A stretch of DNA of 64,000 nucleotides from an uncultured Croceitalea sp. (GTDB lineage Bacteria > Bacteroidota > Bacteroidia > Flavobacteriales > Flavobacteriaceae): the NCBI GenBank assembly GCA_947503285.1, contig CANNDD010000001.1:372001-436000 (forward strand). The letters run 5' to 3'. The notes below the pieces were generated by a model that saw only the letters and a list, made by a program, of their open reading frames with translations, was not told the origin of the DNA and did no database searches. A program made the translations under genes and the position numbers. Shown here piece after piece: positions 15,747-38,364 of the stretch. Every line of letters begins with the position of its first letter. Within the stretch, counting starts at the first letter, position 1.

Positions 15747-16154
15747 AGATTATTGAACTACTTTATTTGGATACTATAGATAGCATTCCTTTGTTTCAAT
15801 TTAGGTCAAAATTAGTGCCAATCAATCAATTGAGACAAAGATAATTTTCTGAAGCTCTTATTTAGAATTTAGCCCATTATTAAAATCAAACTAAGATTGT
15901 CTTTTCGTATTTCCTAAAAATTCACTAATTGACTTCATAGCCAGTACCCTACTGTTATCACCATTGGATGAATAAAGAAAATCCATTTTAAAAGGTCAGA
16001 ATGTTCCGTGATAATCCCCTTTAACCCCTATCTGATTCAGATATCTTACATTTTGGTCATTTACACTTTGATTTTGGTTAACCCATAGGCTCGCTTTGGA
16101 AATACATTTGTACTGTAAAAATTAAACAAATACAAAAACCTTAAATACAGTACG
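15747..16154. other. 408-bp divergent intergenic region upstream of the RND operon
   Basis: It lies between the divergent membrane AraC gene and the RND operon. The right end holds the paired half-site promoter described separately. The rest is AT-rich and no gene or hairpin stands out. Confidence 0.5.
16054..16110 (+). promoter_or_regulatory. AraC-type paired half-site promoter of the RND operon
   Basis: TGGTCA at 16054 and TGGTTA at 16075 are 21 bp apart. The second starts 32 nt before TTTG of the -7 box TACATTTG (16103-16110). The same layout occurs at six other promoters in the window. The distance to the ATG is about 45 nt. Confidence 0.75.
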
Positions 16155-17381
16155 ATGAAAACAATTAATTTAAAAACCAGGAATTTTAGTGTAAAAGTCT
16201 TCGTCATTTTTGCCCTAATGCTAGGTGCAATGGCCTTATTGGCCTTTTCGGCATTTGACAAGGAAGAACAAAAAGAAATAGCTTCAGTGGAACCAAAAGG
16301 GCTTCCAGTAGAAGTATCAAACCCAGTATTCGAAAAAATCACGGAATGGGATGAGTACACCGGTCGTTTTGAAGCGAGTAACCGTGTAGAGGTAAGGGCT
16401 CGCGTTAGTGGTTACATTGAGAACGTTAGTTTTAAAGACGGTCAGTCCGTAACTAAAGGAGACGTATTATTTACCATCGACCAGAGACCTTTTAAGATTG
16501 CCTTAAACCAAGCAAGGGCAAGTTACGGTCAAGCACAGGCAAGACTGACGATAGCTCAGGATAATTTTAGTCGTGTCGCATCTTTAAGGGAATCAGGCGC
16601 GGTATCCGCTGAGGAGTACGATAGCCGTAAACAGGCATTGGCCGGTGCCAAAGCTTCCATACAATTGGCTCAGGCAGCTGTAGACAACGCACGATTGAAT
16701 CTAGAATTTACACGGGTAAAAGCCCCAATTTCGGGCCGCGTAAGTCGTGATATGGTCAATCAAGGCAACTTAATCGATGGTGGTTCTTCAAGTTCGACCT
16801 TATTGACTACGATAGTAGCCACAAGCCCAATTCACTTTTACTTTCAAGGAAGTGAATCCGATTACTTAAAGTACACCCGATTGGCACAAAGCGGGGAACG
16901 GGAATCATCACGTTCCAAAGCAAATCCCGTAATGTTAAAATTACAGGATGAAACGGATTATACCCACGAAGGGGTTATGGATTTTGTGGACAATGAAATT
17001 GATAGAAGTACGGGAACCATCGAAGGTAGGGCAACTTTAGAAAACAAAGACGGTTTAATCGAGCCAGGTATGTTCGGTCAAGCAAGATTATTGGGAAGTG
17101 CAGAACACGAAGCCTTAATGATTCCCGATGAGATCATCGGCACCAATCAATCAGTACGCTATGTATACGTACTTGATGAAAATAACCAAGTAGCCATAAA
17201 GAACGTAGAACTTGGTTCACTACATACCAACGGACTTCGTATCATTAAAAATGGGTTAACTCCAGAAGATAAAGTGATTACGAACAACATCCAGAAAATT
17301 AGACCAGGGGTCGTGGTAAGTCCGACTGAAAAATCCATACATCAAAATGAGGATGCTTTAGCTTTCTCAGAGGCGCAATAA
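16155..17381 (+). CDS. RND efflux periplasmic adaptor (AcrA/MexA type)
   Basis: 408 residues with an N-terminal membrane anchor (VFVIFALMLGAMALLAFSAF) and the usual membrane-fusion fold: an N-terminal barrel half, lipoyl half (RVSGYIENVSFKDGQSVTKG), a coiled-coil hairpin, second lipoyl half (TRVKAPISGRVSRDMVNQGN) and C-terminal barrel. It bridges the inner-membrane pump and the outer-membrane channel encoded next. The start is supported by the promoter about 45 nt upstream. Gene order adaptor-pump-channel is standard for a tripartite HAE1 pump. Confidence 0.95.
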   Translation: MKTINLKTRNFSVKVFVIFALMLGAMALLAFSAFDKEEQKEIASVEPKGLPVEVSNPVFEKITEWDEYTGRFEASNRVEVRARVSGYIENVSFKDGQSVTKGDVLFTIDQRPFKIALNQARASYGQAQARLTIAQDNFSRVASLRESGAVSAEEYDSRKQALAGAKASIQLAQAAVDNARLNLEFTRVKAPISGRVSRDMVNQGNLIDGGSSSSTLLTTIVATSPIHFYFQGSESDYLKYTRLAQSGERESSRSKANPVMLKLQDETDYTHEGVMDFVDNEIDRSTGTIEGRATLENKDGLIEPGMFGQARLLGSAEHEALMIPDEIIGTNQSVRYVYVLDENNQVAIKNVELGSLHTNGLRIIKNGLTPEDKVITNNIQKIRPGVVVSPTEKSIHQNEDALAFSEAQ

Positions 17382-17398
17382 AACCCAATAACATTTTG

Positions 17399-17460
17399 GT
17401 ATCCTTGATTTCCCTCTCTATTACTTCGATTAATAGCTGAAAAGAGAGAGGCTAGGATAC
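17399..17460 (+). other. hairpin between adaptor and pump genes
   Basis: GTATCCT pairs with AGGATAC, and inside it CCTCTCT pairs with AGAGAGG, giving a long imperfect hairpin in the 107-bp gap. It lacks a T-run, so it looks like an mRNA processing or stability element rather than a full terminator. Confidence 0.5.
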
Positions 17461-17488
17461 TACTGTCCAACATTAAAAAATAGAAACA

Positions 17489-20400
17489 ATGAAATTTAGT
17501 CACATTTTTATCAAAAGACCCATCTTCGCAGCGGTGCTCAGCATCCTGATACTGATAGTGGGCGGATTGGCATACGTTTCCTTGCCAGTATCACAATTTC
17601 CAGATGTAGCGCCACCTACAGTACAAGTAGTAGCAACCTACCCTGGAGCAAATGCACAAACACTTTCAGAAACCGTTGCTACGCCTTTAGAGCAGGAAAT
17701 CAACGGTGTGGAAGGAATGATTTATATGACCTCACAGTCTTCGGCAGATGGCCGTGTTACCTTACAGGTAGCCTTTGAATTGGGTACCGATTTAGACCGC
17801 GCCCAAGTTCAGGTACAAAATAGGGTAGCCATTGCAGAGCCGAGGTTACCGGAATCGGTAAGACGTTTAGGAATAACCACCAACAAAGTATCGCCCGATA
17901 TTTTGCTCGTTGTTAATATGTATTCCCCCAATAAAACATACGATCAAACCTATATCGGAAATTATGCCACCCTTCAAATGATCGACCAGATTGCAAGGAT
18001 CAAGGGAGTAGGCGACATTCAAATATTCGGAGCAGCGGAATATGCGATGCGTATTTGGTTAGACCCAGACAGGATCGCAAACCTTGATATGACCGCTGGT
18101 GAAGTAGTGGCCGCTTTAAGGGCCCAAAATGTTCAAATCGCAAGTGGTACGTTGAACACATTACCCTCAGGGAAACAATCCGCTTTTGAAATCAATATAC
18201 AGACCCAGGGGAAGCTGGTCACCCAAGACCAATTTGAGAATATCATCATTAAATCGGGTGAAAACGGCCGTATCGTACAATTGAAAGACGTTGGTCGTGT
18301 AGAATTAGGCGCACAAAACTATGCTACCAAAGGATATTTGGGAAAAGACCCTGCGATTGCAATGCCCATTTTCCAACAACCGGGCGGAAACGCTTTGGAA
18401 ACTGCAGCTTCCATACAAGAAAAAGTAGCCGAATTAGCAAAAAACTTTCCTGAAGATTTGGAATATAAGATTGCATACAATCCAACGGAATTCGTTCAGA
18501 AATCCGTAGATGAAGTATATCATACCATTTTCGAAGCAGTACTACTGGTCATCTTTGTTATCTTATTATTTCTACAATCGTGGAGGGCAGCTATCATTCC
18601 GATATTAGCGATTCCAGTATCCTTGATCGGTACATTTGCCGTAATGCAGGCCATTGGCTTTTCATTGAATAACTTAACCTTATTCGGACTGGTACTGGCA
18701 ATCGGTATCGTAGTAGATGATGCCATTGTGGTGGTAGAAAATATGGAACGGTACTTAAAACAGGGATTATCCCCAAAGGATGCAGCCCGTAAAACAATGG
18801 ATGAAGTGGGTGGTGCCTTGGTAGCTATCGGACTGGTATTGATTGCCGTTTTTGTACCAACAGCATTTTTAGAAGGTATCTCAGGACAGTTCTACAAGCA
18901 ATTCGGATTGACCATAGCCGTGGCAACGGCAATATCGGTTTTCGTATCGCTTACCTTAAGTCCGGCAATGGCTGCTTTATTGATGCGTCACGAAGCCCAC
19001 GACCCTAACAAAAATACACCCTTACTTTTAAGACCGTTTAAATGGTTGGGCGACGGCTTTAACCGTTTTATGGACAAGCTCTCCGAACGATTTGGAAACA
19101 GCGTTCGAAAACTTATCAGAACAGGTACGATGGTAATGGTCGTATATGGCGGATTGATTGCTTTAACAGGATTTGAATTCAATAGAGTTTCAACAGGTTT
19201 TGTACCTCAAATGGACCAAGGGTATTTCATTAACGTTATCCAATTGCCGTCGGGGGCTTCATTATCTAGAACGGATGAAGTCGTTCAAGAAGCGATCGAT
19301 AAAATATTGAACGTAGATGGTGTTGAAAATACAGTTGCATTTACTGGCTACGATGGAGCTTCTGCCACAAATGCTTCCAATGCAGCAGCGATTTTTTCTA
19401 CTCTTGAAGATTTTGATGTTAGAAGTGAAAAAGGATTGACGACCGAGTCCATCCTTGCTGAATTACGACAAGAACTGGGAAGCATAGACAATGCATTTGG
19501 TGTGGTTATTCCACCACCATCGGTACGAGGTATCGGTAATGCTGGTGGTTTTAGAATGATGGTGCAAGACCGTGGAAATCTGGGAACCGCTGAATTGATG
19601 AATGCTACCAATGCACTCGCTGCCGCAGCAAATGCAGACCCAGCTTTAAATAGTGTATTTACGTTCTTTAATAACCAAACACCACAATTATTCTTGGATA
19701 TTGACCGTGTTAAAGCGGAGCAGTTGGGGATTGATGTTGCAGATATTTTTCAGTCATTGGAAATCTACATGGGCTCCGCTTTTGTAAACGAATTTAACTA
19801 CTTGGGTAGAACCTATCAGGTAACCGCCCAAGCAGACGCGCCCAATCGATTGACACCTGATGATATTTCTAGGATTAAGGTAAGAAACAATCAAGGCGAG
19901 ATGGTGCCATTAGGCACGGTAAGTACCCAGAAAGATATTGCAGGCCCAAGTAGGGTACCACGATTTAATCTATATCCAGCTGCTTCTTTGGTAGGTGATG
20001 TAAATCCAGGATTTAGCTCTGGCCAAGCTTTGGATAGAATGGAGGCCCTTGCCGAAGAGGTTTTACCCCAAGGAATTTCCTTTGAATGGACGGAACTGGC
20101 CTACCAACAAAAACAAACAGGAAATACGGCAGCCATTGCCTTCTTATTGGCAGTTATCTTTGTATTCCTTTTACTTGCGGCACAGTTTGAAAGTTTAGTA
20201 TTGCCGTTAGCGGTCATCTTTATTGTACCGATGGTATTACTATCGGCAATGATCGGTATTGATTTAGCGGGACTGGATAATAACATTATGGTTCAAATAG
20301 GGCTCGTTGTTTTGGTAGGTCTAGCCAGTAAAAATGCCATTCTCATCGTTGAGTTTGCGAAACAGCTGGAAGACCAAGGCAAAGACTTGAAAACGGCTGT

Positions 20401-20677
20401 CATCGAAGCTTCTAAACTGCGTTTACGCCCAATCTTAATGACTGCAATGGCATTCATATTAGGGGTCGTGCCTTTAGCAATTGCAACGGGTGCAGGTGCT
20501 GAGCTTCGAGTTTCCCTTGGTATTGCCGTATTTAGCGGAATGCTCGGAGTCACCATCTTCGGAATCTTTTTAACACCCGTATTTTACTACTTGGGAAGAC
20601 GATTGACAACTAAAAAAACAAAGACGGAAAAGGTTAAAAAACCAGAGGTGTTGACCGAACAAGTCCAAACTTCATAG
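17489..20677 (+). CDS. RND multidrug efflux permease, HAE1 (AcrB/MexB) type
   Basis: 1062 residues, the size of AcrB-type pumps. It starts with FSHIFIKRPIFAAVLSILIL and has twelve membrane helices with two large periplasmic loops. The proton-relay aspartates are visible in helix 4 (GLVLAIGIVVDDAIVVVENM) and the helix 10 region has GLASKNAILIVEFA with the conserved lysine. It exports hydrophobic or amphiphilic compounds from periplasm or membrane in exchange for protons. The substrate range cannot be told from sequence. It is the second gene of the tripartite operon. Confidence 0.96.
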   Translation: MKFSHIFIKRPIFAAVLSILILIVGGLAYVSLPVSQFPDVAPPTVQVVATYPGANAQTLSETVATPLEQEINGVEGMIYMTSQSSADGRVTLQVAFELGTDLDRAQVQVQNRVAIAEPRLPESVRRLGITTNKVSPDILLVVNMYSPNKTYDQTYIGNYATLQMIDQIARIKGVGDIQIFGAAEYAMRIWLDPDRIANLDMTAGEVVAALRAQNVQIASGTLNTLPSGKQSAFEINIQTQGKLVTQDQFENIIIKSGENGRIVQLKDVGRVELGAQNYATKGYLGKDPAIAMPIFQQPGGNALETAASIQEKVAELAKNFPEDLEYKIAYNPTEFVQKSVDEVYHTIFEAVLLVIFVILLFLQSWRAAIIPILAIPVSLIGTFAVMQAIGFSLNNLTLFGLVLAIGIVVDDAIVVVENMERYLKQGLSPKDAARKTMDEVGGALVAIGLVLIAVFVPTAFLEGISGQFYKQFGLTIAVATAISVFVSLTLSPAMAALLMRHEAHDPNKNTPLLLRPFKWLGDGFNRFMDKLSERFGNSVRKLIRTGTMVMVVYGGLIALTGFEFNRVSTGFVPQMDQGYFINVIQLPSGASLSRTDEVVQEAIDKILNVDGVENTVAFTGYDGASATNASNAAAIFSTLEDFDVRSEKGLTTESILAELRQELGSIDNAFGVVIPPPSVRGIGNAGGFRMMVQDRGNLGTAELMNATNALAAAANADPALNSVFTFFNNQTPQLFLDIDRVKAEQLGIDVADIFQSLEIYMGSAFVNEFNYLGRTYQVTAQADAPNRLTPDDISRIKVRNNQGEMVPLGTVSTQKDIAGPSRVPRFNLYPAASLVGDVNPGFSSGQALDRMEALAEEVLPQGISFEWTELAYQQKQTGNTAAIAFLLAVIFVFLLLAAQFESLVLPLAVIFIVPMVLLSAMIGIDLAGLDNNIMVQIGLVVLVGLASKNAILIVEFAKQLEDQGKDLKTAVIEASKLRLRPILMTAMAFILGVVPLAIATGAGAELRVSLGIAVFSGMLGVTIFGIFLTPVFYYLGRRLTTKKTKTEKVKKPEVLTEQVQTS

Positions 20678-20700
20678 CGCATATTAGATTTTGGTCATAG

Positions 20701-20734
20701 TAAGGGTGTTATTGGTTATCAAAAAACACCCTTA
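20701..20734 (+). other. hairpin between pump and outer-membrane channel genes
   Basis: A perfect 10-bp stem (TAAGGGTGTT with its complement) and a 14-nt loop sit in the 99-bp gap. With no T-run it may be a partial terminator or mRNA stabiliser that sets the ratio of the subunits. Confidence 0.55.
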
Positions 20735-20776
20735 CCTACCGAAATTTGTATCAAGAAATCAAAAAAATTTAAACAG

Positions 20777-22252
20777 ATGAAAAATTTAACACTAATAACA
20801 CTACTATCCCTGATATTGGTTTCCTGTGGGGTTACCAAAAGGGATTTTGAAGTCAACTCCAATGTTGAGCTAGAAAGTAATTATTTAGAAAATATATCGG
20901 AAGATTCCGCTATCCTAAAAGCCAATACGACGGCCACTATCGAATGGTGGTCAGCATTTAATGACCCTATTTTAGATACCCTAATTGATAAGGCTAGAAA
21001 ACACAATCTGGATATCAATATGGCCGTTGCAAATCTATATGCATCAAGAGCGATGGTCAAGGAAACAAAATTGGATAGATTACCAACGGTGACGGCAAAC
21101 GGAAACGTGACCAGAACCCGCTTAGGTGAAAATATATTTGTACCGGGTGCGAACCCGACATTTACGACCTATAATTCCAGTTTTGATGCTTTTTGGGAAA
21201 CCGATTTGTTTGGTCGCGTATCCAACAGGATAAAGGGCGCTTATGCCAACCAACAAATAGCAATGACGGATGTACAAGGAACATATGTAAGCATTTTTGC
21301 CGAAGTCGCCAGAAATTATATGGAACTGCGGGGTGCACAATACCAATTGGATATTGCAAACCGTAACCTTAAAGGGCAACAAGAAACCTATGATTTAACG
21401 GTTCGCCTTTCCGAAGCAGGAACCAGTAATCAATTGGATGTATCTAGGGCATTGGCACAACTGGAAAATACAAGAGCCACCATACCACCATTAAATGCTA
21501 GGATTGAGGCTTTAAAAAACAGCATTAGTGTATTGATTGGGGAAGTTCCTGGTAACCTGGATGGTGATATCATCACTAAAAAACCATTGCCAAGCCTTCC
21601 AGAGTCGGTAGCTATTGGGAACGTAACGGATTTATTACGAAGACGCCCGGATGTAAAACGTGCAGAAGCCGAATTACAAGTGCAAATCGCTACGTACAAT
21701 TTGTCGGTAGCAGAGTTATATCCTAAAATCCAGTTCGGAGGTTCTATAGGATTTTCAGCGGTTGATTTTTCAAACTTTGGAAACAATGATTCCTTTACCT
21801 GGAGCATCTTTCCTAGCATCAGTTGGGCAGCTTTTAACTTAGGTCGCGTAAAAAAGCAAATTAAGAAAGAAGATGCGCTGACCTTAGCGGCATTGCAACG
21901 CTATGAAAAAACGGTATTGGAAGCCTTGGAGGAAATTAGAACGGCAATGACCAATTATACCAATGAACTGGAACGAAGGGAAACCCTTAGAAAGTCATCC
22001 TTAGCAAGTGCAAAAGCTACTGACATTGCGAGGAAACGTTTTAACGCAGGCCTGGATAGTTTTATTGATTACCTGAGCGCGGATAACACCTTATTATTGG
22101 CAGAAAACAGATTGGCCAGTAGCGAAATAGCTTCTGCTACTTCTTTGATCGCCATCTACAAAGCACTTGGTGGTGGATGGGAAATCATTGAAACGGATGA
22201 ATTGGACCAACGATTTGAAGAATTGAAAACAGCAGATACGAGTTCAAAGTAA
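20777..22252 (+). CDS. outer-membrane channel lipoprotein of RND system (OprM/TolC, NodT type)
   Basis: 491 residues with a lipoprotein signal (LLSLILVSCG) and two repeated outer-membrane efflux halves rich in coiled coil. The conserved family segment LLRRRPDVKRAEAELQ lies near residue 290, and EWWSAFNDPILDTLIDKA near residue 55. It forms the trimeric exit duct for the adaptor and pump encoded upstream. It closes the operon; hairpins follow downstream. Confidence 0.95.
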   Translation: MKNLTLITLLSLILVSCGVTKRDFEVNSNVELESNYLENISEDSAILKANTTATIEWWSAFNDPILDTLIDKARKHNLDINMAVANLYASRAMVKETKLDRLPTVTANGNVTRTRLGENIFVPGANPTFTTYNSSFDAFWETDLFGRVSNRIKGAYANQQIAMTDVQGTYVSIFAEVARNYMELRGAQYQLDIANRNLKGQQETYDLTVRLSEAGTSNQLDVSRALAQLENTRATIPPLNARIEALKNSISVLIGEVPGNLDGDIITKKPLPSLPESVAIGNVTDLLRRRPDVKRAEAELQVQIATYNLSVAELYPKIQFGGSIGFSAVDFSNFGNNDSFTWSIFPSISWAAFNLGRVKKQIKKEDALTLAALQRYEKTVLEALEEIRTAMTNYTNELERRETLRKSSLASAKATDIARKRFNAGLDSFIDYLSADNTLLLAENRLASSEIASATSLIAIYKALGGGWEIIETDELDQRFEELKTADTSSK

Positions 22253-22258
22253 ACTACC

Positions 22259-22330
22259 CCGGGGCAAGCCCGCGAGGCATTCATAGGAAACAAACGTTTA
22301 ATTTCGAGGCAAGCCTCGGAGTATTATACC
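22259..22330 (+). repeat. dispersed palindromic repeat, copy 1
   Basis: It contains GGGGCAAGCCCGCGAGG and then AATTTCGAGGCAAGCCTCGG. Related but diverged copies lie near 51196-51265 and 58584-58655 in the opposite orientation. The core TCGA-n-GC-aa-GC-n-TCG is palindromic. Here it follows the RND operon. Confidence 0.55.
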
Positions 22331-22358
22331 CTTTGGTGGTGCCAATAAAAACACATGG

Positions 22359-22391
22359 GTTGAGACCCCATGTTGAACTCGGGGTCTCAAC
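22359..22391 (+). terminator. 11-bp hairpin after the RND operon
   Basis: GTTGAGACCCC pairs with GGGGTCTCAAC around an 11-nt loop. It lies about 100 bp after the channel gene. No T-run follows, so termination strength is uncertain. Confidence 0.5.
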
Positions 22392-22457
22392 TAACAAAAT
22401 TGAATTCTGTGAAATCCTTTTTATTTTATGATTTCATTGACTTTAGTGTTGGATAGG

Positions 22458-22497
22458 GCAGCAGTCTTTTTATGATGAAAAGGCTGCTGCTTTTTTA
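22458..22497 (+). terminator. intrinsic terminator upstream of AraC gene
   Basis: GCAGCAGTCTTTTT pairs with GAAAAGGCTGCTGC and is followed by six T. It ends readthrough from the RND operon and lies right against the next gene, so the promoter of that AraC gene must overlap it or the gene depends on readthrough. Confidence 0.8.
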
Positions 22498-22521
22498 TTG
22501 AATTTGTGTATTTTGAAAAAA

Positions 22522-23424
22522 ATGAAAGAACAAAAAATATATAACTCGATATCCGAATTCTTCGCTTCCATCAATCTCGAGATTGAACAGGATTTTGATT
22601 TTACCATTCATAGTTTGGACAAACTTCACGGAGAAGACCCGATGACCTCACCCTATTTTAGAACAAATTATGTAGCGTTCTTGGTCATTGAGTCCGGAAA
22701 AGGGCATTACACCATAGACGAAAACTGGTTCGAGTTAAAACCTTTCTCCTTTTACTTCACCTTGCCAGGCCATCTTAAATCGTTTACCATAGAAGAGAAT
22801 TGGAAAGGTTATATGATTACCTTCTCTTTGGAATTTCTAAGGTCGCAATATCCTGGAAGCATTCAGTACGATTTTCCGTTTTTGCTCAATGAGACCGTTC
22901 CCGTGATGTATTTGGATGACAATACATTTGATAGAATCTCTGAGATGTGTGCCTCATTAGAAAAAGAATACAGTGGAGACTCTTCGTTCAAAAAGCGTAT
23001 CGTGGCCAATCAGTTGGTGACCTTTTTATTTCTCACAAAAGAACTATTGTTATCCCACAAAGCGATTATCTCGGCCGAGAACCGGCCTGCGGAAATCGTA
23101 AAACTGTTTCAGACGGCCCTCAATAAAAACCTATTGGATATCGTAAAGGGTAATGCCAACCACATTTTAAATGTACAAGAGTATGCCGATGAACTTTCAA
23201 TGCATCCCAACTATCTGAGCAATGTGGTAAAGTCGGAAACGGGTAAGACCGTGAAAGACTGGATTGATGAGCGAATTATCTCAGAGGCAAAATCATTGCT
23301 CAACAATACCAATAAAACCATAGCGCAAATTGCCTATGGTCTTACTTTTGACGATACGTCTAATTTTTCACGTTTTTTCAAGAAAAAAACAGGCCTGACA
23401 CCGGCGAAATATCGTCAATCTTAG
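22522..23424 (+). CDS. AraC-family regulator (cupin sensor plus HTH)
   Basis: About 300 residues. The N-terminal half is a cupin-like sensor (GHYTIDENWFELKPFSFYF) and the C-terminal 100 residues are the double HTH: NVQEYADELSMHPNYLSNVV, and QIAYGLTFDDTSNFSRFFKK then KTGLTPAKYR. I chose the ATG at 22522; in-frame TTG codons upstream (22498) fall in the terminator T-run. It lies directly upstream of the SDR gene whose promoter has the paired half-sites, so it is a candidate activator of that and similar promoters. Confidence 0.92.
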   Translation: MKEQKIYNSISEFFASINLEIEQDFDFTIHSLDKLHGEDPMTSPYFRTNYVAFLVIESGKGHYTIDENWFELKPFSFYFTLPGHLKSFTIEENWKGYMITFSLEFLRSQYPGSIQYDFPFLLNETVPVMYLDDNTFDRISEMCASLEKEYSGDSSFKKRIVANQLVTFLFLTKELLLSHKAIISAENRPAEIVKLFQTALNKNLLDIVKGNANHILNVQEYADELSMHPNYLSNVVKSETGKTVKDWIDERIISEAKSLLNNTNKTIAQIAYGLTFDDTSNFSRFFKKKTGLTPAKYRQS

Positions 23425-23428
23425 AAAT

Positions 23429-23485
23429 TGACCATAAGGTCTTAAAAACGGACCTAACCTGCGCTTCCCTTTTACTGGACATTTG
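23429..23485 (+). promoter_or_regulatory. AraC-type paired half-site promoter of SDR gene
   Basis: TGACCA at 23429 and GGACCT at 23450 are 21 bp apart; TTTG of the -7 region starts at 23482, exactly 32 nt after the second. The initially transcribed region GTAGTGTAATTAAAA is shared with the promoters near 31.67 and 38.36 kb. Confidence 0.68.
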
Positions 23486-23533
23486 TAGTGTAATTAAAAA
23501 ACAAATATTAATTCACTTAAAAATCATAGTAAA

Positions 23534-24292: not shown

Positions 24293-24329
24293 AAATCCAT
24301 CCTGAATAATAAGTAAAATCAATAATCAT

Positions 24330-24357: not shown

Positions 24358-24371
24358 AAAAAATTTAAAAA

Positions 24372-24818: not shown

Positions 24819-24839
24819 ATTCATATTTCAAATCCTCAT

Positions 24840-24875: not shown

Positions 24876-24892
24876 TTTACTATATTGTCTTG

Positions 24893-25795
24893 GTGAAATC
24901 CAAAACAAACTACTATAAAGATATTTTCACATTACTTAAAGGTTTAAAAACGGTTCGGCCTTTGAGTGCAGACTTCCATATCCATAAATTTTCAGATACA
25001 CCAGATAGTTGGGTGAAGGAAACCAGTATCTTCCGAAGCGATACCTATTCCATCATTTTATTGACCGAAGGGGAAGCCGAATATAAGATTGGGCTATCCG
25101 ATTATCATATTACCGAGGGGAGCATTTACTTCCAGGCACCACAACACCTACGTTATTACAATCGACTGTCGGAATGGGAAGGCTACGTGATTGTCTTTAT
25201 GGAACCCTTTTTTGAGGACCATCCCACACTTAAAAAATTAGTGACCGAGTTTGATGGCTTTAAAATCACTTCAAAAGTGGTTGTGAAATTAGATGATGAC
25301 ATCGTATTGGAAACGGAACAAATGTTCCGACATTTGTACGACATCAGCTATTCAAATAGTGTACATCGTTTTGATAAGGCCAAATCCTTATTGGAACTGA
25401 TTATGCATCAAAGTACGGAGCATTATAATTTTTTGTACCAAAATCAAAAAGAAACCAAACAAAACCGTATCGTCAAGCGCTTCGAGGAAATCGTTGAAGA
25501 GCACCTCTATGACATTACGACCAACAAAGTAGAACGCTTGATAAGTATATCCGAGATTGCGGAGCGTATCCACATCAATGCGACCTATCTAGGGGAAGTA
25601 CTAAAGAAAGTAACCGGTAGAACGCCTAAGGAAATTCTTTCCGATAGAATCATATTGGAAGCCCGTTCGTTGTTGAACAATACCAATATGGCCATCAATG
25701 AGATTGCCTACTTCCTAAAGTTTCAGGATGCCTCTAATTTCACCAAGTTTTTCAAATCAAAAACTGGTTTTTCGCCATCTGAATACCGTCAATAG
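24893..25795 (+). CDS. AraC-family regulator (cupin sensor plus HTH)
   Basis: About 300 residues. The sensor half contains SIILLTEGEAEYKIGLSDYH; the HTH half has ISEIAERIHINATYLGEVLK and NEIAYFLKFQDASNFTKFFK then KTGFSPSEYRQ. There is no ATG near the expected beginning; the start is GTG at 24893 or the TTG just before it (24890). It precedes the aldo/keto reductase operon with its paired half-site promoter and is a likely local regulator. It is a clear relative of the AraC protein at 22522. Confidence 0.9.
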   Translation: MKSKTNYYKDIFTLLKGLKTVRPLSADFHIHKFSDTPDSWVKETSIFRSDTYSIILLTEGEAEYKIGLSDYHITEGSIYFQAPQHLRYYNRLSEWEGYVIVFMEPFFEDHPTLKKLVTEFDGFKITSKVVVKLDDDIVLETEQMFRHLYDISYSNSVHRFDKAKSLLELIMHQSTEHYNFLYQNQKETKQNRIVKRFEEIVEEHLYDITTNKVERLISISEIAERIHINATYLGEVLKKVTGRTPKEILSDRIILEARSLLNNTNMAINEIAYFLKFQDASNFTKFFKSKTGFSPSEYRQ

Positions 25796-25824: not shown

Positions 25825-25881
25825 TTACCTGCTTTGGTTGATTTTTGACCATAGAATCGCCTTGTAGCTGTCGGATATTTG
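25825..25881 (+). promoter_or_regulatory. AraC-type paired half-site promoter of aldo/keto reductase operon
   Basis: TTACCT at 25825 and TGACCA at 25846 are 21 bp apart, and TTTG starts at 25878, 32 nt after the second. The first half-site is the weakest of the set. Downstream GTACTGTA matches the RND promoter. Confidence 0.62.
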
Positions 25882-30344: not shown

Positions 30345-30369
30345 ACCCGTTAGTGTTGCTATTAGTTTT

Positions 30370-30426
30370 TGGTCATTTAGTCTTGCATAATGGTCGTCTA
30401 TCAAACTAATGTCAGCGATAGATTTG
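30370..30426 (+). promoter_or_regulatory. AraC-type paired half-site promoter of epoxide-hydrolase-like gene
   Basis: TGGTCA at 30370 and TGGTCG at 30391 are 21 bp apart; the -7 box TAGATTTG has TTTG at 30423, 32 nt after the second half-site. Confidence 0.75.
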
Positions 30427-30469
30427 TGGTATAAATAAATAATAACACATTTAAACTACAATATTCGCC

Positions 30470-31489: not shown

Positions 31490-31555
31490 GAAACCTTCTT
31501 TTCTTGGTATTCTTTAAGCCTTATTACCAGATACCCCCATAACTCTTAGCAAAGC

Positions 31556-31594
31556 AAAAAAGCCAGTTTTTCCAATTGAAAAGCTGGCTTTTTT
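31556..31594 (+). terminator. intrinsic terminator after epoxide-hydrolase-like gene
   Basis: AAAAAAGCCAG pairs with CTGGCTTTTTT; the inner bases TTTTTCCAATTGAAAA can extend the stem. It ends in a T-run. Confidence 0.88.
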
Positions 31595-31620
31595 TATGAT
31601 GTATTTAGATTCATTTAAAA

Positions 31621-31677
31621 TGGTCATTTGTTCTTGGTAATTGGTCAAAGTAAAGGGCTGCTTCAGAGGTAAATTTG
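31621..31677 (+). promoter_or_regulatory. AraC-type paired half-site promoter of SnoaL/NmrA/YhdH operon
   Basis: TGGTCA at 31621 and TGGTCA at 31642 are an exact repeat 21 bp apart; the -7 box TAAATTTG has TTTG at 31674, 32 nt after the second. Confidence 0.8.
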
Positions 31678-31711
31678 TAGTGTAATTATGAATAATCTAA
31701 AAACAATAACA

Positions 31712-32251
31712 ATGAAAAATTTAAATACGAATAAAATTATTCCAGGACGTTTATCTGAAAAATCACTAACTGATTCAGAAAAAATACAATTGCTATACGA
31801 TAGGGAAGTCATCGCTCAAATCGTAAGCACCTATGCGTACAGTCTTGACAAAAAAGACTGGGAAATGCACAGGGCATTATTTGTAGATGATTTACAAATG
31901 GATTTCTCAGTATCCATAGGTGGGGAAGGAGGCATCATGGAGGTAAAAGCAGATGACTGGGTAGCTGGCGCCGCTAAATTCTTTGATGCGCTTGATGCCA
32001 CCCAGCATGACCTAACCCCTTATAAAATAGTGGTTGATGGTGATGAGGCCTATGTCTCTGTAATGCTACACGCCCAACACTACAAGAAAAACAATTTTGG
32101 AAGCCCCGTACAGATTATGGTCGGTACCCATAATTTTTGGATGCGAAAGGTAGATGATGTATGGAAAATTTATAAAGTCATTGAAGAATTAAGCTGGAAT
32201 GAAGGCAATTATAAAGTCTTTGACCTTGCCGTAGAAGAATCAAGTAAGTAA
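31712..32251 (+). CDS. SnoaL/NTF2-like protein
   Basis: About 179 residues, a single cone-shaped NTF2-like domain of the SnoaL type (LLYDREVIAQIVSTYAYSLD, KKDWEMHRALFVDDLQMDFS, FWMRKVDDVWKIYKV). Such domains serve as isomerases, dehydratases, cyclases or binding proteins. I chose the ATG at 31712 over one at 31688, because the promoter's TTTG ends at 31677 and the upstream ATG would be almost leaderless. It heads a three-gene operon. Confidence 0.8.
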   Translation: MKNLNTNKIIPGRLSEKSLTDSEKIQLLYDREVIAQIVSTYAYSLDKKDWEMHRALFVDDLQMDFSVSIGGEGGIMEVKADDWVAGAAKFFDALDATQHDLTPYKIVVDGDEAYVSVMLHAQHYKKNNFGSPVQIMVGTHNFWMRKVDDVWKIYKVIEELSWNEGNYKVFDLAVEESSK

Positions 32252-32294
32252 GATCCCATCGAAGGGTATAATCGAAAAATAATATCAAATAAAA

Positions 32295-33194
32295 ATGGAA
32301 AATAAAAAAAACATCCTCATCGTAGGAGCAACAGGTCAAGTAGGGAACAAGGTTATAGAACTACTTAACGGGAATAAAGCGTTAAACCTTTTTGGAACCT
32401 CAAGAAATAAAGAAAAACTAAAAACACTTAGTGGTGCCAATATAAAAGGCGTGTACTTAGACCTCGAAGACAATGATTCCATAAGACCCGCTTTAAAAGG
32501 AATGGACAGTGCCCTATTAATGACTAGTTATACTGCGGATATGATGCGGCAAAGCAAACGCTTTTTGGATATTGCAAAAGAAGAAGGTGTGAAACATATT
32601 GTCCACATAGGTGCATCGGGCACCAATACCAATGAAATAGCACACTGGGGCTGGCATCAATTTATTGAAGCCTATATCGAAAAATTAGGGTTTGACTATA
32701 CCCATTTACAGCCGGAATCCTTTATGCAGAATATCTTCAACTTTGGCTGGCTTCAAGAAAATACCCTTCACGATTTTATAGGGAATGCCAATTGGACGTG
32801 GGTTGATACGGACGATATTGCAGAAGTCATAGCACAACTGTTTATCCATCCTGAAAAATACCTTAATGAAACCATCCCACTTGGTTATGATGGAAAAACG
32901 ATAACTGAAATTTCAAGTTTGATGGCTGAAGCTACCCAACAAGATTTTGAAGTGGTGAAACACCACCCAGATGAATTTAGGGATATGACCTACCAAGGCA
33001 CCAAAGATTCCGTATATGCGGACGCCTATATGAAGTGTGTATCCGACCAATTTGCCTTGAATGCTTCCGGTGCGCTTGCTACGGGAGAAACCTTTGACAA
33101 TTTCGAATACATCACTGGTCGTAAACCTACCAGTTGGAAAGATTTTATTCAAAAAAACAAGCATAGAATAGGGAATCAAGCCGTATTGGCATAA
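32295..33194 (+). CDS. NmrA-like NAD(P)-binding protein
   Basis: 299 residues of the atypical SDR/NmrA type, starting with the Rossmann motif ILIVGATGQVGNKVIELL and continuing with GVYLDLEDNDSIRPALKGMD and ESFMQNIFNFGW. Relatives include quinone reductases (QorB type) and NADP sensor proteins. It lies between a SnoaL-like gene and a YhdH-type reductase, 43 and 18 bp away, so quinone or enone reduction would fit, by inference only. Confidence 0.9.
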   Translation: MENKKNILIVGATGQVGNKVIELLNGNKALNLFGTSRNKEKLKTLSGANIKGVYLDLEDNDSIRPALKGMDSALLMTSYTADMMRQSKRFLDIAKEEGVKHIVHIGASGTNTNEIAHWGWHQFIEAYIEKLGFDYTHLQPESFMQNIFNFGWLQENTLHDFIGNANWTWVDTDDIAEVIAQLFIHPEKYLNETIPLGYDGKTITEISSLMAEATQQDFEVVKHHPDEFRDMTYQGTKDSVYADAYMKCVSDQFALNASGALATGETFDNFEYITGRKPTSWKDFIQKNKHRIGNQAVLA

Positions 33195-33212
33195 TAACAA
33201 AAGAAAAGTAGT

Positions 33213-34193
33213 ATGGAAGCGATTGTAATTGAAAAGGAAAAAGATAAAGCGGTACCAAAATTTAAAACTATCGACGAATCGGCACTTCCCAAAGGAGATG
33301 TCTTAGTAAGGGTCAATTATTCAGCCTTGAATTATTCCGATGCTGCAACAATGTTCAATATATGGAATATGGTGGAATCTTTTCCCCATATTCCAGGTAT
33401 TGATTTCGTGGGCACAGTGATTTGGAGTTCAAACGAAAAATTCGATGTGGGTGAGCGTGTGTTACACACCAGCTACGGTGTGGGTTACAATCGCTTTGGC
33501 GGATTGGCGGAAAAAGCGGTTTCCAATGGGGATTGGTTGATTAAAGTACCCGATTCGGTAACGGATATACAGGTCATGGGACTGGGAACCGTCGGACTTA
33601 CGGCAATGTTGGCTATCACTGAATTAGAAACCAACGGACTTATACCAGACGATGGAAAAGTACTAGTTACTGGTGCAACGGGTGGCGTAGGCTCTTTAAG
33701 CATTCAATTATTACATCAATTAGGCTATGAAGTAGTCGCCAGTACAGGAAAGTTGGATTCTTCAGCGGAATACTTGAAATCTATCGGAGCGTCTGAAGTT
33801 ATTGACCGTGATGTTTTCAAAACTGAAACTAAAGAAAATTTAGAAGATGAAAACTATGCAGGTTTTATAGATTCCATAGGTAGTAATACATTATCCAGGG
33901 CCATTAAGCAATTGCAATATGAAGGCGTTGGTATCTCAACAGGAATAGTGACCGGTTTAGACCTTGATATATCTTTAGCACCCTTTGTGATGCGGGGTGT
34001 TAAGCTAATCGGAATCAATTCTGTCTACGCGGAAAAGGGGAAACGCGAACGCGCATGGAAACGACTTTTTGAGTTGGTGGATTTTGAGACCTTAGGGAAA
34101 TCCCTTAGGATCGAACCCATTGAGAAAGTTCCCCAATTGGCCCAGAATATGCTGAATGGAAATAATACCGGAAGAATCGTAGTACGCGTTTAA
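33213..34193 (+). CDS. YhdH/AcuI-family quinone oxidoreductase (medium-chain reductase)
   Basis: 326 residues with LPKGDVLVRVNYSALNYSDA, PHIPGIDFVGTV and the cofactor motif VLVTGATGGVGSLSIQLL. No zinc ligands are seen, as expected. Members of this subgroup reduce enones such as acryloyl-CoA with NADPH. It ends the operon and lies 61 bp before an AraC gene. Confidence 0.92.
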   Translation: MEAIVIEKEKDKAVPKFKTIDESALPKGDVLVRVNYSALNYSDAATMFNIWNMVESFPHIPGIDFVGTVIWSSNEKFDVGERVLHTSYGVGYNRFGGLAEKAVSNGDWLIKVPDSVTDIQVMGLGTVGLTAMLAITELETNGLIPDDGKVLVTGATGGVGSLSIQLLHQLGYEVVASTGKLDSSAEYLKSIGASEVIDRDVFKTETKENLEDENYAGFIDSIGSNTLSRAIKQLQYEGVGISTGIVTGLDLDISLAPFVMRGVKLIGINSVYAEKGKRERAWKRLFELVDFETLGKSLRIEPIEKVPQLAQNMLNGNNTGRIVVRV

Positions 34194-34254
34194 AGCTTTC
34201 TTTTTCGTATATAAATCCATATCTTACCGTACTACTAAAAATTAGCAGTATACG

Positions 34255-35160
34255 GTGAAAATCGATGATATATACACGTTCTCAAAAATTGAGGATTACT
34301 ATGACTTTATAAACTTTGAATGCAAGGTATTCGACGGTTTTTCCATAGGTAGGTTGGAAGATTCGGCAGTGAATATCCCCCAAGTAATGCCACCTTACCG
34401 GAAACGGTTTTTTAAGATAATGGTGATTTTGGGTGGAGAAATCGATATGAAAAATAATTCTGAAGAAAAGCATTTGGAGAGCAATACGCTTTTCTTTTCA
34501 GGAGAAGGTCATATACAGTCTTGGGAGAGTATCAAACCCCTTTCAGGCTTTATCCTCTATTTCACTTCAGATTTTTATTCCGTTGTCCATAAAAAGAACA
34601 AACTGCATTCTGATTTCCCATTCTTTACCCAGAATGCCTCAATGGGTATCAAGATCACCCCAGAAGAAACGGATCATTTAAAGAATACCTGTGAAAATAT
34701 CATTCAACTGTCTGAACAAGATTTGGCCAATAAGAATGATATCTTCCGGTCATACCTCAATATCGTATTGTTGGAATCACTGAACCTTTATAAGCAAAAG
34801 ATAGGAACGAGTAGCGTTACCGAGGATTCTGATACGCGTATCTTGAATCAATTCAATGAGTTGATAGAAGAACAATACGGTACAAATAAAGAAGATGTTT
34901 TGAAATCAGTTAAGGAGTTCGCCAATACAATGGCAATACACCCTACACATCTTAATTATGTGGTTAAAAATTTAACGGGAAAGACCGCATTACAGACCAT
35001 TCATAATCGACGCTTACTTGAAGCCAAATCCCTATTGAGACAAACTTCCAAAACCGTAAGTGAGATTGCTTACGACCTTCATTTTGACAACCCTACCCAT
35101 TTTGTGCGTTTTGTAAAGAAAAAAACGGGTAAAACACCCGTTCAGTTTAGGAATACTTAA
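34255..35160 (+). CDS. AraC-family regulator (cupin sensor plus HTH)
   Basis: 301 residues starting with GTG ([10 protein letters not shown]). The sensor half has [13 protein letters not shown] and [18 protein letters not shown]; the HTH half has [20 protein letters not shown] and [20 protein letters not shown] then [10 protein letters not shown]. It lies just after the YhdH gene and may be transcribed with it. TACCGTA and TACGGT in the 50 bp upstream form a loose inverted pair that could be an operator, but this is weak. Confidence 0.9.
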
Positions 35161-35528
35161 AAAAGATTTGTTGTCGCCCATGTTTTGTCCCGGCCTTTAT
35201 TCGTGATAAAAGTATATATATGGTATAATCATAAGAATAACGCTTTAAACAAGATGCTATAAAAATGCTATAATCAGCTTTGATAGTCTGGATAGCAATC
35301 TAGCTTCACATAACCCTAATATTAATAGTATTTGGGGAATATTTGAACCATTGACCAATACTACCCAGAACTTTTCTATTGACTCTTGTTCCAGTAATCT
35401 TAATGATGTACGTACCCATTCCATTCTGAACAAAGGGCTTTCGGTTTAAAAAGTAACCAAACAGTGATTTTTCAGGGATAGGAATCACCGTTTTTTAATT
35501 ACCTTGGTAAGGTCTAAAACCAATTGGC
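35161..35528. other. 368-bp intergenic region
   Basis: No gene is supported. A 60-codon minus-strand frame at 35306-35488 has no recognisable family. Near 35498 is TTACCTTGGTAAGGTC, a palindrome followed by CCAATTGG, just before the MFS gene; its half TTACCT resembles the half-sites of the AraC-type promoters but no TTTG lies 32 nt downstream. Confidence 0.4.
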
Positions 35529-36860
35529 TTGTTTAAATTTTTTACATCTAAAATATTTCCAATCCTCTTGGTAAACTTTATTGGAATCCTCGGGTATAGC
35601 CTAGTGATTCCAATATTGATTTTTATAGTAACCGATTTTGGGGGAAATGGTTTTATTTATGGTATTCTTGGCGCTACCTATCCGTTCTTTCAATTTATAG
35701 GTGCCCCGATCTTGGGTCGCCTATCCGACAAGATCGGAAGAAAGAAGGTATTGATAATCTCGCAAGTAGGTACCTTTATTGCCTGGCTTCTATTCCTTTT
35801 GGCTTTTGCATTGCCTAAAACCCAACTTTGGCAACAAAATACGGAACTTACAGGGAGCTATATGATGACCCTGCCGCTGATCATTATATTTCTAGCACGC
35901 ATTTTTGACGGGTTCACAGGGGGTAATATTTCCGTTGCGAATGCCTATATGTCCGATATATCCACGGACGAGGACCGAAATCGTAATTTCGGACTGATGG
36001 GTTCTTCTACAAGTTTAGGTTTTGTAATTGGTCCGGCCTTTGCAGGTCTTTTGGCAAGTTCATTTTTAGGTGAGATACTTCCATTGATTCTCGCTGCCCT
36101 AATTTCTTTGGCCGCAATTTTCGTAATCAATTTTAGGCTTGAAGAAAGCGTACCTTGTATCGTTGATACGGGTGGCATATCCATTAAAAATGTACGGCGC
36201 TTTTTTCAGATTGAGCATAAAGACTGTTTTACAGAGGGTAGCGAAGCGCTAGAACCTGAAAGTAGTACGGGTTGGAGACGTGTTCTGAAAATAAAGGGGG
36301 TACCCTTATTGTACGGTATCTATTTTTTGACCTTTTTTGGCTTTAGCCTTTTTTACGCTGGTCTTCCTATTTACGCCAATGGTATTCTAGAATGGTCTGC
36401 CATAGATCTAGGCATCTTTCTCGCCTATTCCAGCTTTATTATGATTCTAGTACAGGGACCTTTACTAAGTAGGCTATCAAAAAAAATATCGAGTAATTCC
36501 TTAGTGCTGATAGGTTCTTTTTTTCTAGCCTCAAGTTTCTTTTTATTGGCAATGAAGAACACCACCGTTCTATATATAGCCAATACCTTATTGTCTTTGG
36601 GCAATGGATTGATGTGGCCTAGTTTCTTAGCGCTTTTATCTGCAGCCGGCACCAAAAAAGCACAAGGAGCCATACAAGGCTACGGAACATCGATGGGTAG
36701 CATCGCAAGTATGTTAGGTTTGGTAATCGGGGGTACACTCTTTGAAAGCATAACTACGTCGGTCTTTATTCTAGGGGCATGTATCTTTGTGATTATAACA
36801 CTTTTGATGCTAATACATAGACATCGACATAGTGGAAGTGAAGCACTGCAACCAGCTTAA
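35529..36860 (+). CDS. MFS transporter (drug:H+ antiporter type)
   Basis: 443 residues with twelve hydrophobic segments. The family motif GRLSDKIGRKKVLIISQ follows helix 2, and a second characteristic region ARIFDGFTGGNISVANAYMSD resembles tetracycline/multidrug exporters. The central loop (about 212-255) is long. The only in-frame start near the first helix is TTG at 35529. It lies in the AraC-rich block and may export the same class of compound as the RND pump. Confidence 0.88.
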   Translation: MFKFFTSKIFPILLVNFIGILGYSLVIPILIFIVTDFGGNGFIYGILGATYPFFQFIGAPILGRLSDKIGRKKVLIISQVGTFIAWLLFLLAFALPKTQLWQQNTELTGSYMMTLPLIIIFLARIFDGFTGGNISVANAYMSDISTDEDRNRNFGLMGSSTSLGFVIGPAFAGLLASSFLGEILPLILAALISLAAIFVINFRLEESVPCIVDTGGISIKNVRRFFQIEHKDCFTEGSEALEPESSTGWRRVLKIKGVPLLYGIYFLTFFGFSLFYAGLPIYANGILEWSAIDLGIFLAYSSFIMILVQGPLLSRLSKKISSNSLVLIGSFFLASSFFLLAMKNTTVLYIANTLLSLGNGLMWPSFLALLSAAGTKKAQGAIQGYGTSMGSIASMLGLVIGGTLFESITTSVFILGACIFVIITLLMLIHRHRHSGSEALQPA

Positions 36861-36912
36861 CACCTGTCCTATTTATATCCAATCGCCAAAAATGGCAATT
36901 TTAATTGGATTA

Positions 36913-36969
36913 TGGTCATTATGCCTTGGGTTTTGGTTAACCAAAGGCTTCAACACGGTTTTAAATTTG
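36913..36969 (+). promoter_or_regulatory. AraC-type paired half-site promoter of a small membrane protein gene
   Basis: TGGTCA at 36913 and TGGTTA at 36934 are 21 bp apart; -7 box TAAATTTG has TTTG at 36966, 32 nt after the second. Around the second box it is almost identical to the RND operon promoter (TTTTGGTTAACC in both). Confidence 0.78.
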
Positions 36970-36994
36970 TAATGAATTTAAAACCAAGGAAATA

Positions 36995-37252
36995 ATGAAA
37001 AATGGATGCCATCAATTAGACAGACCTTCACTATTGTATATCATTTTGGAAGAGCTGGTCTTTTTAAAAGAGACGCGAAAAACAACAGCTTACATTCTGA
37101 ACGTATTGAAACGTTCTTACAACGGCGTCAAAGCAAAATACCGACGTGTTGTAAAAAACGAATGGACCCAAGCATACTTGATCCTCGCCGGATACATGAC
37201 ATTTTCGACCTTGCTCCTATTCGTTACCTATAAACTGGTCATGATATATTGA
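36995..37252 (+). CDS. small single-helix membrane protein, unknown
   Basis: 85 residues with a charged, basic N-terminal two-thirds and one C-terminal hydrophobic helix (LAGYMTFSTLLLFVTYKLVMIY). I recognise no family. It is called because its ATG is 26 nt after a promoter of the shared AraC-type design, one of the clearest of the set. A second, overlapping frame (37006-37233) lacks this support. Confidence 0.6.
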   Translation: MKNGCHQLDRPSLLYIILEELVFLKETRKTTAYILNVLKRSYNGVKAKYRRVVKNEWTQAYLILAGYMTFSTLLLFVTYKLVMIY

Positions 37253-37372
37253 AAAGCCGTTATGGGTGCCCTTGACCAAACCATGATTGGGCCAGGAAAC
37301 ACCTTCCTTATCTAGGGATGTTACGCACTACACTGAAATACTATTTTCAGGAATAAATAGACCTATCGTATT

Positions 37373-37402
37373 TTGGTGATATTGGTCAAAAAAATAACTT
37401 TG
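37373..37402 (+). promoter_or_regulatory. consensus promoter of AraC gene with internal TGGTCA box
   Basis: TTG at 37373, a 19-bp spacer and TAACTTTG at 37395 form an almost ideal Bacteroidota promoter. A TGGTCA box (37383) lies between the -33 and -7 elements, where a bound protein would block RNA polymerase, suggesting autorepression. The transcript would have almost no leader. Confidence 0.62.
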
Positions 37403-37406
37403 TGGT

Positions 37407-38297
37407 ATGTCAAAAAAAGAAATACCGGTATTTGAAACAAGTAACGATATTCACGAAGCTACGGGCTTTGACCATCGTAGTCATATACCCGGGTTTGACA
37501 TTTTCACCCTTGAATCACTTGAACCCACGACAAGAAGATGTATGCCCCCATATCGCCAAGGATTCTATCAAATAGGTATTCTTAGCAATACTACCGGCAG
37601 CGAAATCAATTTGAATACCAATGCCGTTAAGTTGGAAAAACTACCCCTTTGGTTTGTGGTGCCAGGGCAAATATTTTCTTGGGTACGCAGTTCAGAGACT
37701 GCCGGCTATCATATTCAATTTCGAAAAGAATTCATCGCCCATTCGATAGCCAATTTGACCGAAGAGTTTCCTTTTCTAAAACTTACCGAAAACAGTGTGT
37801 TCTTAATGACGGAAGAAGAACAAAAGTCCTTGGAATTTGATATGGCCAGGATGCTGTCCGTTTTTGAAAATCCCCACCCATATCAAGAACGCATGTTACA
37901 GGGCATGCTGGTTTCATTACTATATAATTGTAAAGCAGTTTTTGAGCGATTTAAAACTACCGAAAGCCACTTATCCAGAGGCCAGATTTTAACCCAACAA
38001 TTTCAGCAATTGGTGGATAGGATTTACGCTGATTCCAAAAATGTCAGTGATTATGCCGAGCAACTAAATGTTACCCCCAATTACCTTACAACCACGGTAA
38101 AGCAAATCACCGGCAAAACGGCCAAGAATATCATACAAGAGCGTATTTTCTTGGAAAGTAAAACGATGCTGACCTTTACCGACTTGGATATTGCCCAAAT
38201 AGGATTTCAACTTAACTTTCAAGAACCCACCCATTTCACACGCTTCTTTAAAAAGTTTAGCGGAACTACCCCGAACAAATTCAGACAAGCATTGTAA
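37407..38297 (+). CDS. AraC-family regulator (cupin sensor plus HTH)
   Basis: 296 residues. The sensor half has PPYRQGFYQIGIL and WFVVPGQIFSWV; the HTH half has VSDYAEQLNVTPNYLTTTVK and AQIGFQLNFQEPTHFTRFFK followed by KFSGTTPNKFRQ. The small-molecule ligand is unknown. Start ATG at 37407 is only a few bases after the -7 box, so translation is nearly leaderless. It precedes the last SDR gene with a paired half-site promoter. Confidence 0.92.
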   Translation: MSKKEIPVFETSNDIHEATGFDHRSHIPGFDIFTLESLEPTTRRCMPPYRQGFYQIGILSNTTGSEINLNTNAVKLEKLPLWFVVPGQIFSWVRSSETAGYHIQFRKEFIAHSIANLTEEFPFLKLTENSVFLMTEEEQKSLEFDMARMLSVFENPHPYQERMLQGMLVSLLYNCKAVFERFKTTESHLSRGQILTQQFQQLVDRIYADSKNVSDYAEQLNVTPNYLTTTVKQITGKTAKNIIQERIFLESKTMLTFTDLDIAQIGFQLNFQEPTHFTRFFKKFSGTTPNKFRQAL

Positions 38298-38308
38298 TAC
38301 CCATATTT

Positions 38309-38364
38309 AGGTCATTACCTATTAAAAACTGGTTATTTTTTTATGGCTATTGGCCAGAACTTTG
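38309..38364 (+). promoter_or_regulatory. AraC-type paired half-site promoter of the second SDR gene
   Basis: AGGTCA at 38309 and TGGTTA at 38330 are 21 bp apart; TTTG starts at 38361, 31 nt after the second, one less than the others. Downstream GTATTGTAATTAAAA matches the other promoters. Confidence 0.68.

Follow-up and report, generated by a model that had tools for sequence, protein, structure and literature searches.

A 64,000-nucleotide stretch of an uncultured Croceitalea sp. genome (contig CANNDD010000001.1, positions 372,001 to 436,000; hereafter the window) carries a cluster of efflux and detoxification genes that, judged from its DNA, probably answers to at least three AraC regulators sharing one operator geometry, two direct half-sites 21 bp apart, but differing in the half-sites themselves: AraC4 at six promoters, AraC1 at that of a short-chain dehydrogenase/reductase gene (SDR1) and AraC2 at that of an aldo/keto reductase operon. 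A preliminary description of the same DNA had assigned seven such promoters to a single local regulon, leaving open which of four soluble AraC proteins binds them. The four genes do lie around the sites, on the forward strand like the eight sites, the pump genes and SDR2 described below (AraC1, 22498-23424; AraC2, 24890-25795; AraC3, 34255-35160; AraC4, 37407-38297); AraC2, AraC3 and AraC4 are 26-28% identical to AraC1. AraC4, whose second helix-turn-helix (HTH) helix reads PTHFTRFFK, is the best candidate regulator, and likely the answer to the question of which AraC binds.

All seven half-site pairs are present in the window with the 21-bp spacing, followed by TTTG 32 nt past the start of the second half-site, or 31 nt in the case of 38309. 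They are alike in geometry but unequally so in sequence: in a leave-one-out matrix scan of both strands (2 x 64,000 positions) the site at 31621 ranked 4, those at 16054, 30370 and 36913 each ranked 6, 38309 ranked 10 and 23429 ranked 14, with 25825 down at 880. An eighth site, overlooked earlier, lies at 20692 before the gene for the pump's outer-membrane channel; both its half-sites are perfect and TTTG follows at +32. The six promoters that we attribute to AraC4, with their scores on the independent matrix described below, are those of the pump operon (16054-16110, half-sites at 16054 and 16075, -7 box TACATTTG; 23.4 bits), whose membrane fusion protein (MFP), RND permease and outer-membrane channel genes occupy 16155-22252; an internal promoter before the channel gene (20692-20748; 16.6 bits); that of an epoxide-hydrolase / haloalkane-dehalogenase-like gene (30370-30426; 19.7 bits); that of the SnoaL-NmrA-YhdH-AraC3 genes (31621-31677; 21.1 bits); that of a gene for a small protein of 85 aa (36913-36969; 20.0 bits); and that of SDR2 (38309-38364, TTTG at +31; 15.4 bits), a gene at 38388-39065. 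The sites at 30370, 31621 and 36913 are best described as TGGTCA-class, the first two being possible sites of AraC4 or AraC3.

Sites of this composition are rare. A tight pattern built from 16054, 30370, 31621 and 36913, TGGTCATT-N4-CTT-N6-TGGTYA-N26-TTTG with up to 3 mismatches, matched the genome (4.34 Mb) 4 times, always within the window; the same pattern read backward matched once, and 100 shuffled windows gave a mean of 0.02. The genome-wide count proposed in the preliminary description, with both spacings exact (TGGTCA-N15-TGGTY-N27-TTTG), gave 6 matches, 5 of them in the cluster (P about 4e-9 for uniform placement, multiplied by the number of spans and calculated post hoc). A half-site pair at C1:365998, 6 kb left of the window, lacks TTTG at the right distance and was set aside. 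The initially transcribed stretch, which had been thought similar among the seven promoters, is indeed similar, but it does not mark the regulon: at up to 2 mismatches the genome has 14 copies of TTTGTAnTGTAATTAAAA against 7 in the control, 5 of the copies being at the sites first described, and an exact one stands upstream of a DJ-1-like gene (identity read from the sequence) where there is no 21-bp repeat.

AraC4 itself is uncommon. Orthologues, taken at 60% identity or above, were present in 6 of 299 family genomes including that of the window, the next best match being at 34%. Public genome contigs provided 40 loci. In 39 of these AraC4 is 61-82% identical, and the other is a distant case, at 32% over 101 residues; the PTHFxRFFK helix is kept in 37 of the 40 orthologues. 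In the more distant of the 39 the locus is compact, running MFP, RND, outer-membrane channel, AraC4 and SDR2, so that SDR2 adjoins AraC4 and AraC4 is the sole AraC gene between pump and SDR2, none of AraC1-3 lying there. Records with this cassette include Arenibacter, Allomuricauda, Leeuwenhoekiella, Robertkochia, Flexithrix and Sphingobacterium. Had the regulon been illusory, related genomes might have been expected to keep the genes and lose the sites; at the pump they keep both. In 25 of the 25 compact loci with the promoter in reach, a TGGTCA-like half-site is followed at 21 bp by a TGGTTA-like one, and TTTG comes at +32 in 24 and at +31 in one, although the DNA between the site and the -7 box varies. 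Relatives with expanded clusters retain further sites. The 16054-type site of genome G217 has identical half-sites and spacer, the 20692-type site of the channel gene has TTTG at +32 in six expanded-relative promoters found by scan, as does the 36913-type site of the small-protein gene in six relatives, and the SDR2 site keeps its +31 spacing in the 10 expanded relatives tabulated, its second half-site with TTTG being present in 11 of 12 expanded loci.

The 25 compact pump promoters, equivalent to about 15 independent sequences, supplied a matrix that drew on other genera only, none of its promoters coming from the window, and that required TTTG at 31-33. An initial version with small pseudocounts, which gave 31621 a score of -12 and 36913 one of 4.1, was superseded by one with larger pseudocounts and half-site columns only. 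The top six scores in the window were then those of 16054, 31621, 36913, 30370, 20692 and 38309 (23.4 to 15.4 bits), followed by 34421 (13.9 bits, inside AraC3) and, after that, by a score of 7.4. Hits of at least 8 bits numbered 7 in the real window and averaged 1.07 in 300 simulated third-order windows, whose best score was 18.6; moving the TTTG distance off 31-33 reduced them from 7 to 0-2. Together, conservation and independent matrix strongly support the earlier suggestion of a local regulon with paired half-sites of AraC type adjoining the -33 region.

Presence of the sites follows presence of AraC4. In the 249 genomes searched for the looser exact pattern, it was found in 5 of 5 with AraC4 and, with 13 matches, in 12 of 244 without; the pattern read backward matched 20 times in the 249, so that genomes lacking AraC4 are at control level and the site is in effect absent where AraC4 is absent. 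Around 12 of these 13 matches there is no AraC gene within the stretch available, up to 1.5 kb on either side, and the remaining one (G222) is a promoter site behind that genome's own AraC1-like gene. The tight CTT pattern with up to 2 mismatches occurs in 4 of the 6 genomes that have AraC4 and in 9 of the 293 that lack it, 13 of 299 in all.

The sites at 23429 and 25825 behave differently. On the AraC4 matrix they score -7.1 and -6.6, compared with 15.4 to 23.4 for 20692 and the other five, and each is conserved, as a different half-site, with an AraC gene of its own; a single regulon of seven is rejected on these grounds, five of the seven (16054, 30370, 31621, 36913 and 38309) remaining, with 20692, in the local regulon. 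Most simply, they are AraC1's and AraC2's own sites. The predicted AraC1 site (23429-23485, TGACC / GGACC) precedes SDR1; behind the AraC1 orthologues of G217 and G211 (L099, L100) the SDR1 promoter keeps TGACC-type half-sites at 21 bp with TTTG behind, the first half-site of G211 being TGACT and the search reporting one stop inside its AraC1 match. G211 has neither an AraC4 orthologue nor an exact AraC4-type site. The predicted AraC2 site (25825-25881, TTACC / TGACCA) precedes the aldo/keto reductase operon, and its promoter keeps TYACCA half-sites at 21 bp behind the AraC2 orthologues of four other loci (L107, L063, L066, L093); in G217, AraC2 and its site are on another contig.

The shared geometry turns out to be a property of the family. 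Of the 60 HTH_18 domains of the host genome, 40 places were examined after omission of 6 in the window and 14 in long frames (354-974 aa); with 28 loci from other genomes these made 68, a duplicate promoter (L041) having been dropped. Thirty-six had a usable TTTG and reading frame, 18 from this genome and 18 from others, several of the latter mutually related and the window's four AraC genes excluded. When the 22 nt at the second site were set against the stretch displaced by every shift from 10 to 33, identity peaked exactly at shift 21, at 0.426 against about 0.28 (z 7.4), a value reached by none of 2000 partner shuffles; the 18 promoters of this genome alone gave 0.364 against 0.277 (sd 0.023) elsewhere. 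A clear repeat, with at least 11 of 22 positions matching, is found for 16 of 74 AraC genes. According to a Bacteroides study (PMC3878776), the motifs of AraC-type hybrid regulators there also average 21 bp. Since the repeat recurs downstream of other AraC genes, identical geometry is not evidence of one regulator: the spacing indicates AraC-type control, the half-site which AraC. A clean example of the geometry is found behind another AraC gene of the window's genome, where the 13 bp TTTTCGAACAAAT are repeated directly and perfectly at a distance of 21 bp (near 33,750 of contig C6), where the initially transcribed stretch is similar as well.

Half-site and second recognition helix tend to go together, HFxRF with TGGT and SNFxRF with TGACC; this is a tentative lead. 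In a scripted table of the 74 AraC genes, the repeat contained GGT in 3 of 3 cases with THFxRF and in 1 of 13 others (Fisher P 0.007; the genes are related). There are exceptions: six THFxRF genes, the window's AraC3 and AraC4 among them, fall below the repeat threshold, and the HFxRF gene of L114 has no GGT. A blind test in the 249 genomes found 28 exact matches to TGGTCA...TGGTY...TTTG and 14 to TGACC...TGACC...TTTG. Among the 13 TGGTCA matches outside AraC4 genomes just one (G222) had an AraC gene within up to 1.5 kb on either side, and among the 14 TGACC matches again one (G217); both had already been used, and the window's own AraC1 site, with its GGACC, falls outside the exact TGACC pattern; the test was thus without power and the helix code stays a lead.

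How these sites might work is suggested by their position. In Flavobacterium psychrophilum the TAnnTTTG box at -7 covers -12 to -5 (PMC9723704). Counted from such a box, the first half-site falls at -61 to -56 and the second at about -40 to -35. TTG is lacking from the -33 region of all six window promoters and all 25 compact pump promoters, but is present in 1 of 6 channel-gene promoters and 1 of 5 AraC3-adjacent sites. All four AraC proteins score above cut-off for HTH_18 and HTH_AraC, the AraC-type double HTH domain. The cluster thus presents two directly repeated half-sites about 21 bp apart, the proximal one adjoining or overlapping the -33/-35 region where the promoter itself lacks that element, and this is the position used by class II activators. 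From sites, geometry, conservation and co-occurrence we infer that AraC4, probably as two side-by-side monomers, would bind the TGGTCA/TGGTTA half-sites; the second would take the place of the missing -33 element, and AraC4 would recruit RNA polymerase to the TAnnTTTG-like -7 box by a contact like those of AraC and its relatives. It would thereby turn on six promoters: those of the RND pump, the outer-membrane channel, the epoxide-hydrolase-like gene, SnoaL-NmrA-YhdH(-AraC3), the 85-aa protein and SDR2. AraC1 would act likewise at SDR1 (TGACC) and AraC2 at the aldo/keto reductase promoter (TYACCA). In 15 of 40 relatives the 75 nt before AraC4 contain one match resembling a half-site, which may serve autoregulation. 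The ancestral unit would be pump-AraC4-SDR2, further AraC-plus-target modules having been inserted between pump and AraC4.

Some observations weigh against assigning all six promoters to AraC4. On the independent matrix with TTTG, half-site spacings of 20 and 22 give 5 hits each, compared with 7 at 21 and 0-3 elsewhere; in our opinion this is because a large share of the score comes from the first half-site by itself. The 20692 and 38309 sites singly score below the best null value of 18.6, so that support for them rests on conservation, and the SDR2 site is present in only 7 of 26 compact loci; the match at 34421, inside AraC3, is probably due to chance. Finally, CTT in the second A-box distinguishes 4 of the 6 window sites (16054, 30370, 31621 and 36913) and 3 of 5 AraC3-adjacent sites, and is seen in 0 of 25 compact AraC4 sites. 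This distribution means that AraC3 may read the four CTT sites. In five relatives a TGGTCA-like site lies directly behind AraC3; four of these have TTTG at +32, and the remaining one has TTTA. The window's AraC3 has no site directly behind it. As its half-site is very close to that of AraC4, AraC3 may share sites with it. That AraC3 is the main regulator of the CTT sites, or that both share them, is a real if minor possibility, favoured also by the position of the AraC3 gene directly behind the gene set of 31621 and by the likeness of the second recognition helices (PTHFVRF in AraC3, PTHFTRF in AraC4). It is countered by conservation of the pump promoter in compact cassettes that have no AraC3 between pump and SDR2, and by the lack of CTT not only in their pump promoters but in all six small-protein promoters of relatives.

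Control by AraC4 as activator has other competitors. The second half-site covers the -33 region, so AraC4 could instead act as a repressor, blocking the promoter, and the half-site-like match upstream of AraC4 is compatible with autorepression there; we think this improbable, as promoters without TTG at -33, in the window and in compact cassettes alike, should be weak without an activator, and the position is that of class II activators. Slightly less probable still is the original proposal of one AraC protein for all seven promoters: the spacing is identical and the initially transcribed region similar, but the geometry is common to other AraC genes, and 23429 and 25825 combine negative scores on the AraC4 matrix with conserved half-sites of their own behind AraC1 and AraC2. 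As for a core promoter element or chance repeats in AT-rich DNA, half-site pairs alone, irrespective of TTTG, are common: allowing up to 1 mismatch, the genome has 149 and the control 70. The idea is scarcely credible when TTTG is taken into account: five of six exact genome matches fall in the cluster, genomes without AraC4 are at control level, and hits collapse when the TTTG distance is changed. On the shuffles, the matrix null and this clustering, a chance origin is rejected. Action of AraC4 as an activator is the reading we prefer.

Among the known systems closest to the proposed AraC4 regulon are the AraC-type hybrid two-component systems (HTCS) of Bacteroides thetaiotaomicron, which, as described in PMC3878776, have an AraC-type DNA-binding domain and predicted motifs of direct repeats averaging 21 bp between tandem sites, and whose paralogues were proposed to control adjacent genes; these are hybrid sensor kinases concerned with polysaccharide use, whereas the cluster's regulators are one-component, soluble AraC proteins whose targets serve detoxification and efflux. 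AraC1-4 are of 296-308 aa and show no kinase or sensor domain in Pfam, which does recognise an AraC-type ligand domain in AraC1 and AraC2. In E. coli, AraC binds araI1-araI2, a direct repeat of half-sites separated by roughly two turns of the helix, of which the second borders the -35 region; the arrangement is alike here, while the half-sites and the -7 box differ. There is a sequence match to the E. coli AraC DNA-binding domain 2k9s. Rob, SoxS and MarA control AcrAB-TolC, likewise placing an RND pump and detoxification enzymes in one regulon under an AraC-family activator, but they bind the marbox as monomers, unlike the 21-bp direct repeat found here, and the regulator gene of our cluster lies inside the pump cluster; the RobA and SoxS models gave weak hits only. 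The mexEF-oprN operon adjoins an oxidoreductase gene and resembles the cluster in pump type, though its regulator, MexT, is LysR-type and not AraC. No published title on an AraC4-type regulon was found in literature coverage that leaves out most subscription journals.

The RND permease passes the NF000282 and TIGR00915 cut-offs, the MFP adaptor is nearest to the MexE and OqxA models, below their cut-offs, and the best NCBIfam model for AraC4, also below cut-off, is HpaA, a regulator of 4-hydroxyphenylacetate breakdown. Targets include an acrylyl-CoA-reductase-family protein (above cut-off), an NmrA-type protein, two SDR proteins, an aldo/keto reductase and a glyoxalase-like protein. The cluster would thus answer a toxic electrophile or aromatic compound; from the enzymes, our guess for the inducer is an aldehyde, a quinone or some other reactive electrophile. 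Most SDR2 orthologues carry a TE-A/S-GNG-like sequence at the position of the nucleotide-binding motif, usually TGxxxGxG in SDR proteins, and YxxxK is present in all 38 relatives listed.

Other features of these loci may be recorded. The 20692 site sits within an inverted repeat, GGGTGTT ... AACACCC (20702-20733), with its second half-site in the loop; both arms recur, slightly altered, upstream of the channel gene in L020, L058, L059, L064, L066 and L095, perhaps as an intercistronic hairpin. In two compact cassettes, L022 (G144) and L023 (G172), the pump is preceded by a gene with its own AraC4-type site, whose product is secreted-looking and about 150 aa long. Just before AraC4 there is a tiny membrane-protein-like frame of about 30 codons (MKKFVLITLLYLTVSV... 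in L058) at 9785 in L058, 9778 in L065 and 9785 in L095, and also in L059, L060 and L062, preceded by an AraC4-type site in three loci. A reductase-like gene with IGIIGSG near its start and an AraC4-type site recurs in three relatives (703 in L061, 2903 in L064, 6540 in L093); nothing in the window matches the L061 protein at E up to 1. Elsewhere in the window, 9195-10952 and 44014-45987 encode two similar proteins with HTH_3, DUF4870 and beta-lactamase-family domains.

The cluster offers one candidate regulator, a precise site, six target promoters and two sister regulators as internal controls of specificity. AraC regulators are numerous in the host genome. The cluster is also a caution against inferring a regulon from geometry by itself. 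We tentatively entertain a broader idea, somewhat doubtful as it is: that the soluble AraC family has one operator grammar, a regulator gene followed by a 21-bp direct repeat at a fixed distance from TAnnTTTG, in which the second helix would set the half-site (HFxRF, TGGT; SNFxRF, TGACC; SNF with K or N, YACCA), the cluster having grown by stacking of AraC-plus-target modules with their regulators separated by half-site change alone. If this grammar is true, the targets of hundreds of uncharacterised AraC regulators would be predictable from sequence alone.

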